Below are positions 3,939 to 42,378 of a DNA stretch of 43,267 nt, piece by piece. The notes under the pieces were generated by a model. That model saw only the letters and a program-made list of their open reading frames with translations. It was not told where the DNA came from and did not search any database. The position numbers and the translations under genes were made by a program. The stretch comes from a virus, in the IMG/VR virus record IMGVR_UViG_3300044712_001783, positions 1 through 43,267 of that record. One strand, written 5' to 3'. How positions within the stretch are numbered: the stretch's first letter is position 1; every line of letters starts with the position of its first letter.

Positions 3939-4916
3939 ATGGCTATCAATTTTGGTTTCGATATGGGAATGGGTGCGCTGAAGTTGTGGAGCGCAGCAGG
4001 CGGCTGGCAGTTAGTGAGCCAGGTGGCGAGCAACGGTCATGGTCATCTTTCGGATGGCATCCTGGGATTGAAGAATCGCAAGCGCCCGATGTTGATCAGC
4101 GGTGATTTCGGTTCGTTCTACGTGGGAGATGGGGCGCATGAGCATGGGCGACCGGTGGAGAACCTGGATTTCGACCGCTTGACAGGCGCACCAGAGATGC
4201 GCGTGCTGCTGTATGCAGCGCTGGCGCAATATCAAAGTGAATATGGTCCGTTCGATGAGGCGCTTTCGTTGATGGTCGGTCTTCCGCTCCAGATGATGAC
4301 TGGTGAGATGGCAAAGGACTATCAGAAGGGTGTGAAAAGCTGGTTGAAGGGTACACATACATTTGAAGTGGATGGCATCACGCACACGGTGGAAGTGGAA
4401 GATGTGAAGCAGACATCCCAGCCGGTGGGAGCGTTGTTTGACTATGTTCTCGATCATCGCGGTCATATGATCGGCGAGCGCGGATCTGCGCTGCTGGATG
4501 AAGTGGGCGTGATCAGCGTTGGATTCAACACAGTGGAGTTGCTGGTGGTGAAGGAACGCGGTGCGCTGGAACGCTTCACCCGTGGCAATACGCTGGGTGT
4601 GCGGCGCTTGTTGGAACTGATGAACCGTGAAGGTCTCTTCAGCCTGGGCGAGTTGGATTCGAAAGTGAGATCTGGTGGGATGCGTGCAGAGATGCGCCAG
4701 GCAATGCCGGTGTGGAGCCGCGAGGTGAACGGTGAGATCGAGAAGGTGTGGGGCGGCAGCCATCGTCGTTTTGCGAAGGTGTTGATCGTGGGCGGTGGTG
4801 CTCTTCTGCTCCAGGATGCGTTAACGCAACAGTTCGGTCATAAGGCTTGGGTTCCTGAAGATGCGGTGCTCTCGATCGCTCGTGGGCTGTGGAAGCTGAG
4901 CGTGATGAAGAGGTGA
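3939..4916 (+). CDS. ParM/Alp-type actin-like segregation ATPase
   Basis: The 325-aa product has the actin-fold signature order: phosphate-1 loop FGFDMGMGALKLW (5-17), a VGLPLQM segment (113-119) typical of ParM/StbA-like proteins, a phosphate-2 region VGVISVGFNTVEL (189-201), and the adenosine motif VLIVGGGALLL (281-291). The usual Asp of the phosphate-2 DxG is replaced (SVG), which is odd. ParM-family filaments push plasmid copies apart when captured by ParR bound to parC. AAGGAG at 3926-3931 supports ATG 3939. A small putative ParR follows at once. It implies segregation of a low-copy extrachromosomal form of the phage. Confidence 0.75.
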   Translation: MAINFGFDMGMGALKLWSAAGGWQLVSQVASNGHGHLSDGILGLKNRKRPMLISGDFGSFYVGDGAHEHGRPVENLDFDRLTGAPEMRVLLYAALAQYQSEYGPFDEALSLMVGLPLQMMTGEMAKDYQKGVKSWLKGTHTFEVDGITHTVEVEDVKQTSQPVGALFDYVLDHRGHMIGERGSALLDEVGVISVGFNTVELLVVKERGALERFTRGNTLGVRRLLELMNREGLFSLGELDSKVRSGGMRAEMRQAMPVWSREVNGEIEKVWGGSHRRFAKVLIVGGGALLLQDALTQQFGHKAWVPEDAVLSIARGLWKLSVMKR

Positions 4917-29559: not shown

Positions 29560-29589
29560 CAAAAACCCGCTCTCATGAGCGGGTTTTTG
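29560..29589. terminator. Bidirectional intrinsic terminator between late operon and serine recombinase
   Basis: Stem CAAAAACCCGCTC (29560-29572) / GAGCGGGTTTTTG (29577-29589) with a TCAT loop. The A run and T run let it end both the rightward late transcript and the leftward recombinase transcript. The recombinase stop lies inside it. Confidence 0.9.
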
Positions 29590-31213
29590 TCACTGTGACA
29601 ACTGCCGGATAACTGAACAGTTGCCTATAGAGAGGTGCCCCCATGGGGGTGCGATTCATAGGCAACAGCTCCACGGGGGCTGATTCAAAAGGGGGCGAGC
29701 CTGTGAAGGGATAATAATATTCGACCAGGCAAAAGATCTTATCTCCAACACGCTCCGCTCGCACTTTGTGGATCAGTTCCTTCAGGTACTGGCGTTTGTC
29801 TTCGTAGGGGGCTTCTTTGATGCGTTGGATCAAGGTTTTGGAAACGGTGACAATTTGATCGTAGGTGAGACGCGGAACCGCCTGGACAGGAATATCCAGT
29901 TCTTCGAGTTCCTTCTTGATCTCAGCTTGGCGTGCTTCCGCATCCCGCAGGCTTTTGGCGATGGCGGTGCTCAGCCCCATCTCACCGATCGCTGCGGTGT
30001 AATTTGCGATCGCTCTGGCAACGGAGGCGCGTTCGTCGTGCAATTCCTTGCGGCGTTCGGTTCGTCTTGCTTCGCCATGCGTTTGATTTTCGATCGCGAT
30101 CTCCTGAATGGCGGCGATGTTGTCAGGTGCAAGGATATGGTTTTCAATGGTATCGATCACTAGCTCTTCGAGCCTACGGCGGTTGACTCTGCCAGCATCG
30201 CAGCCAGCGTGGCGCTTGGATCGTGAGCAGCGATAACCTTCATCGCGATTTTCGACTTTGTTGCGGATGGTGGTGTTGCCATTCATGGGCGCTTCACAAC
30301 GGGCGCAGATGCAATACCCGCTCAGCAGATAGGCAGAGTTGGTGCGCTTAGGATGGCTTTCTTTGAAAATGGTTTTGGCGTGATCTTCGGAGCGCTTTTG
30401 CACGGCGTTCCAGGTTTCCATATCGATCAACGCTTCGCAGTAATTCTCAACAACAAGATCCCCGAATTCGAGAATACCGATGAACAGTTTATTGCGGAAG
30501 AAGGTGGTGTATGAATTCGTGGAACCGAAGATGCGTGTGGCTTTGTGTATCTCTGCCACCGGTGCTCCACTAGCTTTCATGCTCCATGCTTTGAGCACAC
30601 GCTTGCGCAGCTTCGGATCGGGCACCCAGCGGTGATTGGTGCGGGTTTCGCCTTTGCGCGGATTGATGGTCTTGATCGGTTCCCGCTTAAATCCCCGCGG
30701 CGGTGTGCCTGGCATAGCTCCCTGCATCACCAGCGCCCGCAGACCATCACGCGCATCGATGGCAGTTTGCTCACTGCGCTCTTCATTCGCCATATCGATG
30801 AACATCTCCGCGAAGATGGCAAACTTGCCTTCGGGGATTTGATCGGTGAGCGAATGGATGGTGATGCCATTGCGCCTGAGACGTTGTTTGTAGTACGTGG
30901 AATCTTCGAGATTGCGACCGAAGCGGGAGAAGCTCCACAACAGCAAGCCATGCGGATTGTGTTCCCCGTTATCTGATTCTTTGATCATGCGTAGGAAGTC
31001 TTCACGCCCCGCAGTGGATGTGCCACTCTTGGCTTCATCTTTATAGACGTGGATCAGCTCCAGCTCGTGTAGTTTGCAATAGCTCTCGATCACTTCAAGC
31101 TGCCGGCTGATCGAGCGGTCCTGATTGTCTCCGCCGCTGTCGCGCAGATATGCCCAGACCGTGGAACCGGGCGGAAGTGTGGAAGGAGGAGGAACGTGGT
31201 TTGAAGAAGACAA
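29573..31213 (-). CDS. Large serine recombinase (phage integrase), 546 aa
   Basis: The N-terminal resolvase domain has YLRDSGGDNQ (catalytic S26, R24), then an EIFDM-like AEMFIDMANEERS helix and WSFSRFGRN. The recombinase domain follows (about 165-290), then a zinc ribbon (CICARC at about 317-322 and YRCSRSKRHAGC) and a coiled coil (about 395-460), in the standard order of large serine integrases. They join attP and attB without high-energy cofactors. The start is an unusual TTG (31213-31211) without a clear ribosome site, so the true start is uncertain. The 3' end contains a nested palindrome (29620-29666). Confidence 0.92.
   Translation of the reverse strand: MSSSNHVPPPSTLPPGSTVWAYLRDSGGDNQDRSISRQLEVIESYCKLHELELIHVYKDEAKSGTSTAGREDFLRMIKESDNGEHNPHGLLLWSFSRFGRNLEDSTYYKQRLRRNGITIHSLTDQIPEGKFAIFAEMFIDMANEERSEQTAIDARDGLRALVMQGAMPGTPPRGFKREPIKTINPRKGETRTNHRWVPDPKLRKRVLKAWSMKASGAPVAEIHKATRIFGSTNSYTTFFRNKLFIGILEFGDLVVENYCEALIDMETWNAVQKRSEDHAKTIFKESHPKRTNSAYLLSGYCICARCEAPMNGNTTIRNKVENRDEGYRCSRSKRHAGCDAGRVNRRRLEELVIDTIENHILAPDNIAAIQEIAIENQTHGEARRTERRKELHDERASVARAIANYTAAIGEMGLSTAIAKSLRDAEARQAEIKKELEELDIPVQAVPRLTYDQIVTVSKTLIQRIKEAPYEDKRQYLKELIHKVRAERVGDKIFCLVEYYYPFTGSPPFESAPVELLPMNRTPMGAPLYRQLFSYPAVVTVTKTRS
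29620..29666. repeat. Nested inverted repeat in recombinase 3' end
   Basis: Outer arms GTTGCCTAT (29620-29628) and ATAGGCAAC (29658-29666) enclose an inner perfect palindrome CCCCCATGGGGG (29638-29649). The whole is 47 bp, the size of an att site for serine integrases, but its centre (AT) is symmetric, which argues against a directional crossover site. Other possibilities are an RNA hairpin or a recombinase-binding accessory site. Confidence 0.5.
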
Positions 31214-36469: not shown

Positions 36470-37393
36470 ATGAAAACTCAAACAGCACCGCTTTCTCTTA
36501 CCGTCCCTGCAACTTGCGAACCTGCAACCTGGAACCTGGAACTTTCCAACCATCTTGCAAAGATTTATCGCAACACCCACACTCGCGAGACCGCAGCACA
36601 ACACATCCGCGTCTTCGTGCTCTGGTACCAGGCAACCTTCCACCAGGAATTCGCCCCTCAGCTCCTCACCAACTATGACCTGCACCTATACCGTGCCTGG
36701 TCTCTCGATCGCGAGAAGGTCAAAGCCTCCACATGGAACTCTCGCCTGTGGGCGCTCACCATCCTATGCAACTGGATCGGAGATCCGTCCTTGCTCAAAG
36801 ACATCGAGCAAAAAGCGCAGGTCCGCGGCTCCACTAAACACCGCTCCCTAACCAGCGACGAATATCACCGCCTGGTCCATGCGCTCGAGCAGAACACAAA
36901 GCGCACCGTCACCCAGTTCGAACACATCAACGCCGTCCGCGATTGGGCATCCGTCATGCTCATGCTGCATGGTCTGCGTGTGGAAGAAGTCACCCTGGTA
37001 GATCTGGATGATGTCACCCTCAACGAACGCAGTGGGGAGGTGCTTGTACGAAACGGAAAGGGCAGCAAGGAGCGGACCGTCCCATTGAACCTGATCGCCC
37101 GCAACGCCCTCCGCCTCTGGCTGGATGTGCGAGCAGGTACCGATATTAAAAGCTTGATCGGCGTCTCCGATCGCACCCTCCAACGCAATGTCGCAGCCCT
37201 GGGCGCTCAGATCGGCGTCCCTGATCTCACCCCCCACTGGGCACGCTACACCTTCGCCAAACGCCTGGAGCGCAAAGAGATCCCGCTGGAGACCATCCGC
37301 GATCTGCTAGGGCACTCCAGCATCGAACAAACCAAACGCTACCTGAGATCTTCACTCGAAGAACTCCAGTCCGCTGTGGAAGAGGTGATGTAG
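36470..37393 (+). CDS. Tyrosine recombinase, Xer-like size, 307 aa
   Basis: Catalytic residues are complete: R170 (HGLRVEEV), K197 (NGKGSK), H256 and R259 (TPHWARYTF), H282 (LGHSSI) and Y291 (TKRYLR). An N-terminal SAM-like core-binding domain covers about 25-110. The N-terminal 25 residues are encoded by filler repeats (ACCTGCAACCTGGAACCTGG), so the native start may be later. The size and lack of arm-binding domain resemble XerC/D rather than lambda integrase. It could resolve multimers or integrate at a dif-like site; such a site lies two genes downstream (39158-39185). Confidence 0.85.
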   Translation: MKTQTAPLSLTVPATCEPATWNLELSNHLAKIYRNTHTRETAAQHIRVFVLWYQATFHQEFAPQLLTNYDLHLYRAWSLDREKVKASTWNSRLWALTILCNWIGDPSLLKDIEQKAQVRGSTKHRSLTSDEYHRLVHALEQNTKRTVTQFEHINAVRDWASVMLMLHGLRVEEVTLVDLDDVTLNERSGEVLVRNGKGSKERTVPLNLIARNALRLWLDVRAGTDIKSLIGVSDRTLQRNVAALGAQIGVPDLTPHWARYTFAKRLERKEIPLETIRDLLGHSSIEQTKRYLRSSLEELQSAVEEVM

Positions 37394-39012
37394 TGTCACG
37401 CAAGAAGTCATACATCACGCTCACTGATCAATTCTGTGGAGCTGGTGGATCTTCGATCGGTGCCACGCTCGCAGGGGCAGAAGTGCGCCTGGCAATGAAC
37501 CATTGGAAGCTCGCTATCGAGACCCACAACACCAACTTTCCAAAGGTTGATCACGATTGCGCTGATATCTCCGCAGTCAACCCACGCAAATATCCTTCCA
37601 CCGATATCTTGATCACCAGCCCTGAATGCACGAATCATTCATTGGCGAAGGGCAAACCGCGGCGCTTTTACGAAAGAGATCTCTTTGGCACCGATCTACT
37701 CGATCCTTCTGAAGAACGCAGTCGTGCCACCATGTGGGATGTTCCACGCTTTGCAGAATATCACGACTACAACATCATCATCACCGAGAACGTAGTGGAT
37801 GCGGTCAAGTGGCGCATGTGGGATGCCTGGCTCTCTGCCATGCACGCACTGGGATATGAGCATGAAGTTGTGTACTTCAATTCCATGTTTGCATTCCCCA
37901 CACCCCAAAGCCGCGATCGCATCTATGTTGTCTTTTGGAAGAAGGGCAACCGCAAGCCAGATCTCGAATTTCACCCCATCGCACACTGTTTGAAGTGTGA
38001 CCGGGAAGTTGAATCAATCCAGACCTGGAAGAAGCGTGTGAAGTGGGGCAGGTACAAGTCTCAGTATTTCTATCGCTGCCCACGCTGCCATGAAGCGGTT
38101 ACACCTTATCACTTCGCAGCTTTCAATGCCATCGATTGGACCATCGAGGCGGAACGCATTGGAGATCGCAAGACCCCCCTCAAACCGAAGACACTCGCCC
38201 GCATCCAATATGGCTTGGAGCAGTATGGCAGGCAGGTGATGGTTGTCACCGGTCGCTATACCAGCGGGATGGAATGCCGGGTTCGCAATGCGAACATCGA
38301 ACCCATGCCCACACAACCAGGTGATGCCAGTCACTATGCTGTTCTTCCGTGGATGGTGGAGACTGCGCACAGCCAGGGCAATGGCAAATACGTTACCGGC
38401 TCCGCAGATCCTGCCCCCACACAAACAACCGCTCAGACACTGGGTATCGTGGCTGGCTTCCTCACCAGGAACTATGGTGGCGCAGCAAAGCCAGAATTCA
38501 TGCCTAGTGGACTCGATGAAGCCACTGGGACCTTCACAGCCAGCGGAAATCAATCTCTGCTGACAGTTCCATCATCTATTCAGAAATCATTCGGCTTGAT
38601 CAATCCTGGCTTCATCGCTGAGCTGCGTGGGACTGCCCACGCACGCGGTCTCGAAGAACCCCTGATGTGTGTCACTTCGAGTGGAAGCCATCATGCGCTT
38701 CTCTCCGCTGGTTCGTTCCTCTCCTATTACTACGGCACAACGCAAGCCAGTGGCATGACAGATCCCATCCACACAGTGACCGGTCTCGATCGCGCTGCCC
38801 TGGTCCAAGCTCTCGATAGTCTCACTGTGGAGGATCTCTACTTTCGAATGCTCCATCCACATGAGATCGGCAAAGCCATGGCATTCCCTCAGCAATACAT
38901 TGTGCTTGGCACTAAGCGTGAGAAGGTCAAGCAGTATGGCAACGCGGTCACTCCACCGGTCATGAAGATGCTGATCGAGCGCTGCATTGCCACACTCGGA
39001 AAAGGTAACTGA
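37393..39012 (+). CDS. C5 cytosine DNA methyltransferase with inserted zinc ribbon, 539 aa
   Basis: GTG 37393 overlaps the recombinase stop. Motif I DQFCGAGGSSIG (12-23), motif IV SPECTNHS with catalytic C79 (PEC instead of the usual PPC), motif VI ENV (132-134), motif VIII QSRDRIY (172-178) and motif X YGNAVTPPV near the end are all present. A four-Cys ribbon (C199, C202, C229, C232) precedes a long target-recognition region of about 240 residues with repeated P-x-T/H-x segments. It methylates cytosine at C5 in an unknown site, probably to protect phage DNA from restriction. No partner nuclease is nearby. Confidence 0.88.
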   Translation: MSRKKSYITLTDQFCGAGGSSIGATLAGAEVRLAMNHWKLAIETHNTNFPKVDHDCADISAVNPRKYPSTDILITSPECTNHSLAKGKPRRFYERDLFGTDLLDPSEERSRATMWDVPRFAEYHDYNIIITENVVDAVKWRMWDAWLSAMHALGYEHEVVYFNSMFAFPTPQSRDRIYVVFWKKGNRKPDLEFHPIAHCLKCDREVESIQTWKKRVKWGRYKSQYFYRCPRCHEAVTPYHFAAFNAIDWTIEAERIGDRKTPLKPKTLARIQYGLEQYGRQVMVVTGRYTSGMECRVRNANIEPMPTQPGDASHYAVLPWMVETAHSQGNGKYVTGSADPAPTQTTAQTLGIVAGFLTRNYGGAAKPEFMPSGLDEATGTFTASGNQSLLTVPSSIQKSFGLINPGFIAELRGTAHARGLEEPLMCVTSSGSHHALLSAGSFLSYYYGTTQASGMTDPIHTVTGLDRAALVQALDSLTVEDLYFRMLHPHEIGKAMAFPQQYIVLGTKREKVKQYGNAVTPPVMKMLIERCIATLGKGN

Positions 39013-39157
39013 GATGCCAGGTCTTCACTCAGCGTGGGCGCTCGGTCGGTGTGGCGGCGGTCACTGTGTTTTATCAGTAGAAGAAAGAATCTCTTTGTTC
39101 ACCTTATTCATTTGCGCAATGGCTCGGGCGCAGGCACGCCCCCAAAAACATTTCTGC

Positions 39158-39185
39158 CCGTCGCATAACAGGCATTATGCGACAA
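39158..39185. other. dif-like recombination site
   Basis: Left arm CCGTCGCATAA (39158-39168), 6-bp spacer CAGGCA, right arm TTATGCGACAA (39175-39185). Two 11-bp arms with a 6-bp spacer are exactly the layout of bacterial dif, and CGCATAA...TTATG are its most conserved bases. A partial third arm lies at 39245-39253. With a Xer-like recombinase upstream it fits a resolution or integration site. Confidence 0.6.
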
Positions 39186-39258
39186 GATCGTTCCTTGGCT
39201 GGCAATCTTAGCCGTCAAGATGGGCGCTAAGGCAGGGAGTATCTGTCGCATAAGGCTT

Positions 39259-39287
39259 GGGTGGTAGGGGGGCGGGGGTGCTCGGGG
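39259..39287 (+). other. G-quadruplex-type motif upstream of primase-helicase
   Basis: Runs GGG (39259), GGGGGG (39267), GGGGG (39274) and GGGG (39284) with loops of 1-5 bases satisfy the usual G-quadruplex pattern on the plus strand. More G runs follow to about 39305. Confidence 0.45.
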
Positions 39288-39369
39288 ATCTCGGGCAGGG
39301 TTGGCTGGGCTACAGGTGGCGATGTGGCTCAGATAGTTAGCAAAATTCTGGAAAAACGGGTAAAGGCTC

Positions 39370-42300
39370 ATGGATAACTTCGTAGCTGAATTGAAGAAGC
39401 GAGTACGGATCGAAGATGTGATCAGCGAGACCGTGGAACTGGAACGAAACCGCGGTCGAGGCTTCACGCGGGGGGCAAAGAAGGGCGTTGGTGAGCATGG
39501 TCTGGTTGTGGACCTTGATGGGCAACGCTTTGCGTGGAATGGGAACGCTGACTATGGCAATGGTCAGTACAACGATGTCATTACGTGGGTGATGATCCGT
39601 GACAGAGTTGATTTTCGGCGGGCGGTGGAGGTGTTGGCTCGCAAAGTAGGGATGGAGCTTCCGAAGTGGAGTGAAGAGCAGCAAGTTCAATTCGCGGCGG
39701 TGCGTGCGAAGGAAGAATTGCTTGATATCGCTCAGCGCATCTTCGCAGAGTGGCTTTGGAAAGATGAGAAAGCCCTGGCGTATGTGCGCGGGCGTGGCTG
39801 GAGTGATGAGACGATCAAGAAAGCGGGTCTTGGCTTCACCGGTTGGGGCACCCCAGCCGAGTATGAACAGATGAAGAACGCTTTTGCTACTGCTGGGGAT
39901 CTTCATTCAGCGGCGGCGGTTGCGGTGCTGGGGCTGCGGGGTGGTGTGGGAGCCTGGTGTGAGAAGCGAAACATCGAAGCGAAGGCACGCTGGCTCGAAC
40001 GCGATGCCATCCCTTCGATGATGGGATGGGGCGAGACCGTTGGGTTGATCTATCCGTGCATTTACTTTGGGCGCACTACTTATTTGTATCGCAGGCATCT
40101 GAAACTCAACGAAGACAAAAGCGCTCTCATTGGTTCAGATGAACCGAAGAGCTACAACCTGCCTGTGGAACTGGTGGGCAATCGCCAGTTGTATTTCAAC
40201 CATGTTTATTCGCCGCGAGCTGAGCGTGTGGTGTTCGTCGAAGGTCCTGCGGATGCTGTGACGCTGGGGCAGTGGGGCGTGGATGCGGTCTCGATAGCGG
40301 GAACAGCCTGGGGTGATCATGAAGCGGAGCTGCGTCGCTTGAAGGATGCGAAGGCTGGTGACAAGCCTGCTCACGAGGCGCTTTATGTGGCGCTCGATTC
40401 CGATCAAGCCGGTCGTTCTGCGATGTTTGGCAAGGATGGCGAGTTCCCGCTGGTGAATATCTTCGGGGCGATGTGCCGCGTGATCTATTGGAAAGAGAAG
40501 GACGCGAACGACTGGTTGCAGGCAATGATCCGTGAGGGGAAGAGCGCGGAAGAGCAAACACAGGCGGCACTGGATGCGATCGGTGGAGCAAAGCCGATGG
40601 CAATCGAGGTGGCGAAGTGGGCAGGCTCGCGGACGGATGATCATGCCAAGACCAAGGCGTTGAAACGTGCCTTCGAAGTGATCGCGCAGATGGGTGATGA
40701 GAACACGATCATGCGCTATGCGTCGGACTTCCTGAGCGCATTCAAGCCTTTGGGCGAGACCGTGAAGGGCATCCGCGAATTTTCGCGGCTGTTGAAGGCG
40801 GCACAGGGCAAGGGTGAAGGGGATGAAAAGAAAGAGGAAGTGATCTACACGTTCGGCGGTCGGATCGGGGATTGGCTGGTGGAATATTGCTATGACCCAG
40901 AGACGCGCAAGGCTCGCTTTGCCTATCGAGATCCGAATGGAAAGGTGGATGAAGCGGACGATCTGGTGATCGATGGCATTCGCTACAAACCGATGCCACC
41001 TGATGACAAGATGATCCGCATTGGCGCCATTCTTTTCCCGAGTGCGCTGGCTCGTAAGAGTGATGGGACTGTTGACCGCAAGAGCACGGCGGAATTGACC
41101 GAGGTGATCGCGTTCAAGTATCGCCAAAACTATTTGTTCCCCCATGCAAAGTGGTCTTACATGGCTGCGTATTGGACGCTGGGCACGTGGCTTTATGACA
41201 ATTTCAATCAGCTCGTTTATTTGCGCATGGTGGGCGATGCGGGAGCCGGGAAGAGTGCGTTGCTGAACCTGCTTGGACAGGTGTGTTATCGCTCGATCAA
41301 GATGAGCGGTGCTGATTCGGAGAGCACGTTCTTCCGCGTAGTGGATGAATATCGTGGGACGGTGATGTTCGAAGAGGCAGATCTGCCCGAAGGATCTGGA
41401 GCGGATAACCCGATCGTGAAGTTCGTGAACCTGGGTGCGATGCGCGGAAACTACATCTACCGCATGGAGGAATATATCAAACCAGATGGAACGAAGGGGT
41501 GGAGACCAAGCCCGTTCGAGACCTACTGCCCGAAGATGTTCGCAATGCGTGGTGACTTCATGGATAACGCTGTGGCTTCGAGATCCATCTCGATCAAGTT
41601 GACCGCGGCGGAGCCTTCTGCGCTGATGGATAAGGGCATCGAGTTGCAGATGAGCGAGAAGACGATGAAGGAACTGCGCTACCTGCGGAATTTGTGCCTG
41701 GTGTGGCGCATGTATGAATTCAGCTTTCAGGAACGGAAGCTGAGCTGGGATCTGGTCGATTTTGAGATCCCGGCACGCTTCAACCAGGTGACGATCCCGA
41801 TGAAGAGCCTGGCTATGAACCTGGATGGTTCGCGGGATGAGAAGTTTCTGGCACAGGTGACGAACCTGCTGCGGGAACATTATCAGGAGATCGTGGGAGA
41901 CAACTCCACCACCTGGGAAGCCCGTGTGGCTGAGGCAGCGTGGAAGATGTACATCTACCCGGATCTGCGGGCGCGTTGTGACATCCATTCGAACGGTTCC
42001 ATCTTCATGAAAATTGGCGACGTGACCGCGATCGCCAACAATATCGCCGATGAAATGAACGAACAGGGCGCAGATCTGCGTGTGAAAACTGAAGTGACCA
42101 GTGAAGAGGGGCAGGGCAAGAACAAGAAAAAGAGCTATGAACTGGGCGCTCAGAAGGTGGGGAAGATCATCCGTGACACGTTCCAGCTGCACACTCCACC
42201 GCGGCGGGGGAACGGTGTGTATTTCGAGTGGGATGACGAGAAGATGATGAGCATTGGGAAGAAGTACGGGGCGCTGCCTCCGATGGAAAAGATCGAGAAG

Positions 42301-42378
42301 GCACGCCAGGAGCTGGCTGCACTGCGGGCAAAGGTGGCGAAACCCTTGCAGATCGGTCTGGAGGGTGCGGATGACTAG
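39370..42378 (+). CDS. Primase-helicase, 1002 aa
   Basis: N-terminal residues 10-100 match the DnaG-type N-terminal domain in outline (YNDVITWVMIRDRV, then FRRAVEVLARKVGMELP) but without zinc-binding Cys. The Toprim domain has VEGPADA (290-296) and DSDQAGR (343-349), the catalytic Glu and DxD of primases. The helicase part has Walker A GDAGAGKS (622-629) and Walker B VMFEEAD (665-671), then a winged-helix-like end. It would prime and unwind DNA at the phage origin. The start ATG 39370 has only GGTAAAGGCTC upstream. A diverged truncated homologue opens the window. Confidence 0.9.
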   Translation: MDNFVAELKKRVRIEDVISETVELERNRGRGFTRGAKKGVGEHGLVVDLDGQRFAWNGNADYGNGQYNDVITWVMIRDRVDFRRAVEVLARKVGMELPKWSEEQQVQFAAVRAKEELLDIAQRIFAEWLWKDEKALAYVRGRGWSDETIKKAGLGFTGWGTPAEYEQMKNAFATAGDLHSAAAVAVLGLRGGVGAWCEKRNIEAKARWLERDAIPSMMGWGETVGLIYPCIYFGRTTYLYRRHLKLNEDKSALIGSDEPKSYNLPVELVGNRQLYFNHVYSPRAERVVFVEGPADAVTLGQWGVDAVSIAGTAWGDHEAELRRLKDAKAGDKPAHEALYVALDSDQAGRSAMFGKDGEFPLVNIFGAMCRVIYWKEKDANDWLQAMIREGKSAEEQTQAALDAIGGAKPMAIEVAKWAGSRTDDHAKTKALKRAFEVIAQMGDENTIMRYASDFLSAFKPLGETVKGIREFSRLLKAAQGKGEGDEKKEEVIYTFGGRIGDWLVEYCYDPETRKARFAYRDPNGKVDEADDLVIDGIRYKPMPPDDKMIRIGAILFPSALARKSDGTVDRKSTAELTEVIAFKYRQNYLFPHAKWSYMAAYWTLGTWLYDNFNQLVYLRMVGDAGAGKSALLNLLGQVCYRSIKMSGADSESTFFRVVDEYRGTVMFEEADLPEGSGADNPIVKFVNLGAMRGNYIYRMEEYIKPDGTKGWRPSPFETYCPKMFAMRGDFMDNAVASRSISIKLTAAEPSALMDKGIELQMSEKTMKELRYLRNLCLVWRMYEFSFQERKLSWDLVDFEIPARFNQVTIPMKSLAMNLDGSRDEKFLAQVTNLLREHYQEIVGDNSTTWEARVAEAAWKMYIYPDLRARCDIHSNGSIFMKIGDVTAIANNIADEMNEQGADLRVKTEVTSEEGQGKNKKKSYELGAQKVGKIIRDTFQLHTPPRRGNGVYFEWDDEKMMSIGKKYGALPPMEKIEKARQELAALRAKVAKPLQIGLEGADD

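Follow-up and report, generated by a model that had tools for sequence, protein, structure and literature searches.

The locus described here raises the question of why a tailed phage should carry a simple Xer-like tyrosine recombinase of its own together with a dif-like site a short way downstream. The window (i.e. the whole stretch of DNA analysed) is a linear virus record of IMG/VR, 43,267 bases long; it encodes head and packaging genes of tailed-phage type, and no Rfam match was obtained anywhere within it. On balance, the sequence comparisons below suggest that the locus is a self-contained phage resolution system that works like TnpI/irs, probably converting multimers of circular phage DNA to monomers.

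Organization of the locus

The relevant features of the window are as follows:

3939–4916, plus strand: ParM-like actin (ALP_N, PF17989), of the plasmid/viral DNA segregation type
29573–31213, minus strand: large serine recombinase, a probable phage integrase
36470–37393, plus strand: Xer-like tyrosine recombinase of 307 aa with a core-binding and a catalytic domain (Pfam PF00589, NCBIfam, alignment of relatives, AlphaFold/Foldseek)
37393–39012: C5 methyltransferase gene, between the recombinase gene and a non-coding gap
39158–39168, plus strand: core left arm CCGTCGCATAA, the less conserved arm in relatives
39169–39174: central spacer CAGGCA, 6 bp
39175–39185, plus strand: core right arm TTATGCGACAA, strongly conserved
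39185–39243: interval from the right-arm 10-mer to the third 10-mer, 59 bp in the window
39243–39253, minus strand: third half-site CTGTCGCATAA (plus-strand reading), in left-arm orientation and inverted with respect to the right arm
39370–42378, plus strand: DnaG-like primase (zinc ribbon and Toprim) fused to a helicase-like part

The sequence-only reading of this DNA had described an 11-6-11 dif-like layout with a third half-site, placed in a non-coding gap two genes after the 307-aa recombinase. The coordinates agree with that placement: CCGTCGCATAA-CAGGCA-TTATGCGACAA forms the core at 39158–39185, within the non-coding gap before the primase gene, and the core and the third half-site (39243–39253) are both conserved in relatives. 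The exact 9-base half-site has no further copy elsewhere in the window, and there is a single core site. In the window alone a three-part match is only moderately unlikely: of 60 first-order Markov copies of the window, 5 gave one or more such matches, with a mean of 0.08 per copy. It is therefore conservation in relatives that carries the case. The methyltransferase gene does intervene as had been noted, but it is not conserved with the module and, as L004, L011 and L018 lack it, was rejected as a module partner. A G-rich tract, GGGGGGCGGGGGT, follows the third half-site (39260–39290); it is conserved in the window's clade and absent from distant ones.

The recombinase

The enzyme had been taken for a Xer-like recombinase that lacks an arm-binding domain, and the domain, family, residue and structural comparisons all bear this out. 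Only the catalytic domain PF00589 was matched in the Pfam scan, and neither that scan nor the AlphaFold model contained an arm-binding domain. Scores against the NCBIfam models were below cut-off for XerA (92.6 against 220 bits), XerC (87.6 against 335) and XerD (65.5 against 330), as was that against the integron integrase (IntI) model TIGR02249 (55 against 265 bits). The catalytic residues R170, K197, H256, R259, H282 and Y291 are all present and are invariant in 19 relatives. In the AlphaFold model, whose mean pLDDT of 85 and pTM of 0.58 leave the domain arrangement uncertain, residues 1–17 are disordered and are followed by core-binding helices and then the catalytic domain; the best solved structures matched by Foldseek were XerA, XerH, IntI and Cre. 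Arm-binding integrases make up the majority of phage tyrosine recombinases: a 2021 survey counted 27 phages with simple enzymes such as this versus 410 with arm-binding ones (PMC8138268).

Conservation and spacing of the three-part site

Close relatives of the recombinase were identified in Virus Rctr41k and on four IMG/VR contigs, of which three have all three half-sites at the corresponding position. The fourth contig and Rctr41k end before that position is reached; in L011, the three half-sites are kept with a recombinase that is only 36% identical. A scan of viral-contig DNA with the pattern TTATGYGACA-N58-62-TGTCRCATAR returned 29 contigs, 26 of which encode a relative of the recombinase (two of these genes are cut by contig ends) and 27 of which have the primase directly downstream of the site. 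One contig of the scan set (L031) stops ahead of the recombinase gene, and another (L046), a 17-kb fragment without the recombinase, has its site 3' of the primase. The match in L033 looks like chance, and the three-part matches in assemblies of Bacteroidota, Pelagicoccus and Olsenella seem to be accidental or to stem from other repeats. Two contig ends fall near the site: Rctr41k (L002:41271, the end of KX853513) stops within a few bases of the expected start of the left arm, and L114 starts (L114:1) shortly before the primase, at the expected far side of the site. As physical junctions these were set aside, two cases being too few and not significant.

For a control set not selected for the site, 77 phage loci were chosen by primase similarity alone and searched for symmetric three-part arrangements with inner TTA/TAA bases and gaps of 30–120. 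The gap was 60 in 27 of the resulting 36 matches, 59 in two and 61 in two, i.e. 59–61 in 31 of 36. Among 43 diverged sites pooled from all sources, whose half-site consensus is conditioned by partly pattern-based selection, 38 have 60 bp between the 10-mers, compared to 59 in the window. A third half-site some 60 bp from the core, as originally proposed, is thus a fixed property of the relatives. The spacer of the core measures 6 bp in 29 of the pooled sites and 7 bp in 14, with 8 bp in a few relatives elsewhere. The middle of the interval carries a motif, TGGCGGTTAGATTGGG..GTAAGG, that is present in many relatives and conserved in the window's clade. The interval also shows a candidate fourth, degenerate half-site (gap 25 or 37) that is only weakly above background, a signal that may reflect shared ancestry.

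Association of the site with the recombinase

Within the primase-selected set, 41 loci have a close relative of the recombinase and 27 of these carry the site, versus 4 of the 36 loci without one (p ~7e-7); in those four the contig ends leave too little upstream sequence to show the gene. Half of the 14 apparent failures (L086, L107, L141, L148, L151, L152 and L153) carry the site on inspection, with one arm decayed or with a spacer that is altered or 8 bp long. About seven of the 41 recombinase-bearing loci have no clear site on inspection, mostly those with weaker recombinase scores, although L102, L115 and L154 combine a strong score with no clear site. Loss of the site from relatives that keep the recombinase, which the sequence-only reading had named as an observation that would tell against it, was therefore mostly not what we found: preset rules recovered the site in 27 of the 41 loci, and inspection in about 34.

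The association extends to loci that have no primase. Plasmid NZ_CP144923 of Brevibacillus borstelensis carries IR1, IR2, DR1 and DR2 copies of one half-site upstream of its recombinase, and the chromosomal loci L217 and L219 have the core and a third half-site directly upstream of theirs, with gaps of 62 and 51, respectively. A recombinase relative in Priestia adjoins a Tn3-family transposase. Such a site was not found with the plasmid relatives of Ammonifex, Carboxydocella and Thermus. Since the site occurs in recombinase loci without the primase and is mostly missing where the recombinase is missing, it belongs to the recombinase.

This distribution bears on two explanations that tie the element to its neighbor, and the fixed position just 5' of the primase gene would suit either of them as well as it suits resolution. 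One is that the element serves as a replication origin whose half-sites are iteron-like boxes for the primase-helicase or an initiator. The constant position beside the primase and the conserved motifs within the 60-bp interval are in its favor; nevertheless, the site is absent from primase loci that have no close recombinase relative and present in recombinase loci that have no primase, which makes this explanation very improbable. The other is that the half-sites form an operator at which the recombinase or another dimeric protein controls the primase and replication operon, recombination being secondary or absent. In nearly all of the phages the primase gene does begin 0–200 bp after the site, and the binding of TnpI to irs regulates genes of its transposon (PMC7157771). 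However, the 6–7 bp spacer and the ATAA/TTAT inner ends typical of Xer sites are kept, the catalytic residues are intact, no primase accompanies the site in the plasmid and chromosomal relatives, and in L046 the site lies 3' of that gene. We thus consider an operator without a main role in recombination quite unlikely, yet regulation of the primase operon is compatible with resolution and may plausibly coexist with it, by analogy with TnpI, which also regulates.

Several related arrangements were noted alongside. A dif-like core, TTTGCGTCTAA-TAGGCA-TTAGGCGTAAA (L162:18199–18226), lies just upstream of the tyrosine recombinase of Moorella phage MCACPph1, which has a second integrase at the opposite end; only the core was seen in this phage, with no three-part site. 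In two chromosomal elements from a single-contig genome of the same phylum (L201:8368–12551 and L204:9090–13297), a recombinase relative lies directly upstream of, and overlaps, a DnaG-type primase gene, and no three-part site is recognizable. Perfect 9-6-9 palindromes, GTCGCATAA-N6-TTATGCGAC, occur on four unrelated phage contigs (L007:1173–1196, L010:13236–13259, L008:137–160 and L009:5710–5733). They were set aside as they have no third half-site and no tyrosine recombinase was found on the record; possibly they are sites for a host Xer.

Joint variation of the half-sites

Across the phages, the half-sites change together, as illustrated by CTGCGGATAA, TTGCGTATAA and GTACGCATAA. Whole half-sites are replaced together in L104, which reads CTGCGGATAA-N6-TTATCCGCAG-N60-CTGCGGATAA, and in L029/L105, where the three are TTGCGTATAA, TTATACGCAG and TTGCGTATAA; L090 and L097 have further versions. 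In 31 distinct loci the right and third half-sites had 16 of 32 departures from consensus in common, a value reached in 0 of 5000 shuffles. The correlation between half-site change and recombinase distance was weak (Mantel rho 0.20, a value reached or exceeded in 69 of 2000 permutations). Of the three half-sites, the left arm varies most across sites, and in this respect resembles the weaker arm of a dif site.

Together, the right and third half-sites also form an inverted repeat, and a folded single strand in which they are paired could serve as the substrate, as with CTXphi attP or integron attC. The strand indeed folds better than shuffles (z -2.9). A hairpin, however, needs no exact 60-base loop, yet the gap is fixed; moreover, pairing generally stops at the 10-bp half-sites, and the left arm keeps the layout of a double-strand core. 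We therefore regard a folded substrate as extremely improbable.

Possible integration at a host site

The sequence-only reading had offered either multimer resolution or integration at the host dif as the role of the locus. Under the latter, the three-part site would be attP, the recombinase an integrase acting at the host dif or another chromosomal site, and the third half-site an arm-like regulator of direction. The core does resemble a bacterial dif (11-6-11, with CGCATAA and TTATG), there is a single site in the window, and the vibrio IMEX phages use dif-like attP sites (PMC5357621). The IMEX phages, however, have no recombinase of their own and rely on host XerCD to reside as prophages at dif, whereas the phage described here encodes its own enzyme with the site and no split sites were found. 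The comparison with host dif that had been suggested gave no support: the palindromic core, at up to three mismatches, had no recurrent chromosomal match in 41 relatives of the Anaerolineales assembly that carries the element, and three pattern searches among Anaerolineales relatives yielded no recurrent dif candidate. Split copies of the site, the other expected sign, were likewise not seen, every copy found being intact, bacterial assemblies included. The recombinase has no arm-binding domain, and many relatives carry a serine integrase (PF00239 in 21 of 34 related records); given the serine recombinase of the window, the tyrosine enzyme need not be the integrase. Taken together, an attP function appears unlikely, and resolution is the better supported half of the original proposal, in view of the single site, the phage's own recombinase, the TnpI/irs-type architecture and the ParM-like actin.

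Comparison with known systems

The closest parallel is with Tn4430 and Tn5401, where recombination takes place at the IR1-IR2 core of irs and DR1 and DR2 are further subsites bound by TnpI (PMC7157771). Both systems combine a two-domain tyrosine recombinase, a core of inverted half-sites and at least one accessory copy of the half-site to one side of it; the full IR1-IR2-DR1-DR2 arrangement is present in the Brevibacillus plasmid relative, and the Priestia relative lies beside a Tn3 transposase, as TnpI does. The phage system differs in that only one accessory half-site is clear, separated by a constant gap of 60 bp, that the half-site sequence is dif-like and that the site lies beside the primase gene, 0.3–4.4 kb from the recombinase. 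A clear DR1 is missing from the window and was seen only in the Brevibacillus plasmid relative. No Tn3-family transposase was found among the window proteins scanned, and the neighbors are phage genes; with no linked transposase, the phage system works like TnpI/irs and is not a member of that family.

The fold, the 11-6-11 layout, the CGCATAA/TTATG core bases and the stronger and weaker arms are shared with Xer/dif systems (XerCD, XerH, XerS and archaeal XerA). In contrast to these, the phage enzyme is single and scores far below the XerC, XerD and XerA cut-offs, the site has an extra half-site and does not lie at a chromosome terminus, and there is no evidence for control by FtsK. Plasmid multimer resolution at cer and psi (PMC5357621) likewise uses 11-bp half-sites, a single core and one-sided accessory DNA, but the accessory DNA of cer binds host ArgR and PepA, whereas that of the phage is a recombinase-type half-site.

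Integron attI also joins a simple core to extra half-sites for its recombinase, IntI, and IntI genes occur in some of these phages: the proteins of L004 (411 bits) and Rctr41k (383 bits) both pass the TIGR02249 cut-off, and those of L006, L043 and L056 strongly match the L004 protein. The genes lie at L004:10642–11955, L002 (KX853513):4680–5678, L006:8087–9181, L043:9469–10446 and L056:11974–12948. The phage recombinase differs in its low score on the IntI model, and the phage site is kept where IntI is absent. In Cre/lox of phage P1, a simple phage-encoded tyrosine recombinase acts on an inverted-repeat site present once per genome, and the pair serves in circularization and dimer resolution. 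Unlike the phage site, lox has an 8-bp spacer and no accessory site, and the kinship of Cre to the phage recombinase is at the level of fold only.

A proposed resolution mechanism

A two-domain enzyme without an arm-binding domain, an extra half-site on one side and a single site together lead us to read the locus as TnpI/irs-like resolution. What speaks for this was observed directly in the architecture, the fixed spacing, the joint change of half-sites, the co-occurrence with the recombinase, the catalytic residues and the single site of the window. From these, we infer half-site binding, strand exchange, resolution selectivity and the biological substrate as follows. A recombinase dimer would sit on the two core arms and exchange strands across the 6–7 bp spacer, while the third half-site, about 70 bp away, would also be bound by the recombinase as an accessory, non-exchanging site. 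The accessory half-site would impose selectivity for two directly repeated sites on one molecule, such that dimers or multimers of circular phage DNA arising in replication would be reduced to monomers without host ArgR, PepA or FtsK. The circular forms considered are a replicative form, a plasmid-like prophage and a terminally redundant genome.

The window and 14 of 34 related phage records that bear the site have a ParM-like actin gene, which fits an extrachromosomal stage. Similar actins occur in integrated prophages as well, e.g. AlpC of corynephage CGP3, and since a serine integrase is common in these phages, a long plasmid stage is not assured. A more speculative extension, rather doubtful at present, is a widespread phage module in which one recombinase and one three-part site at the head of the replication operon might both resolve multimers and control primase expression, thereby coupling the separation of copies to replication.

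Significance for uncultured phages

The layout is conserved across dozens of distantly related phages; the hosts of the phage described here are probably Chloroflexota. No description of this phage module was found in the part of the literature searched. Its parts are of known kinds; what is new, as far as checked, is its occurrence in phages, the rigid 60-bp placement of a lone accessory half-site and the joint variation of half-sites throughout the family. A branch of uncultured phages thus shares a simple recombinase with a well-defined target of three half-sites that keep a fixed spacing and change jointly. The phage series lets half-site specificity be read from sequence, and the module offers many ready-made, possibly orthogonal recombinase-site pairs. 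The phage system also provides a direct test of how, in the absence of host proteins, selectivity for resolution is imposed by an accessory half-site.
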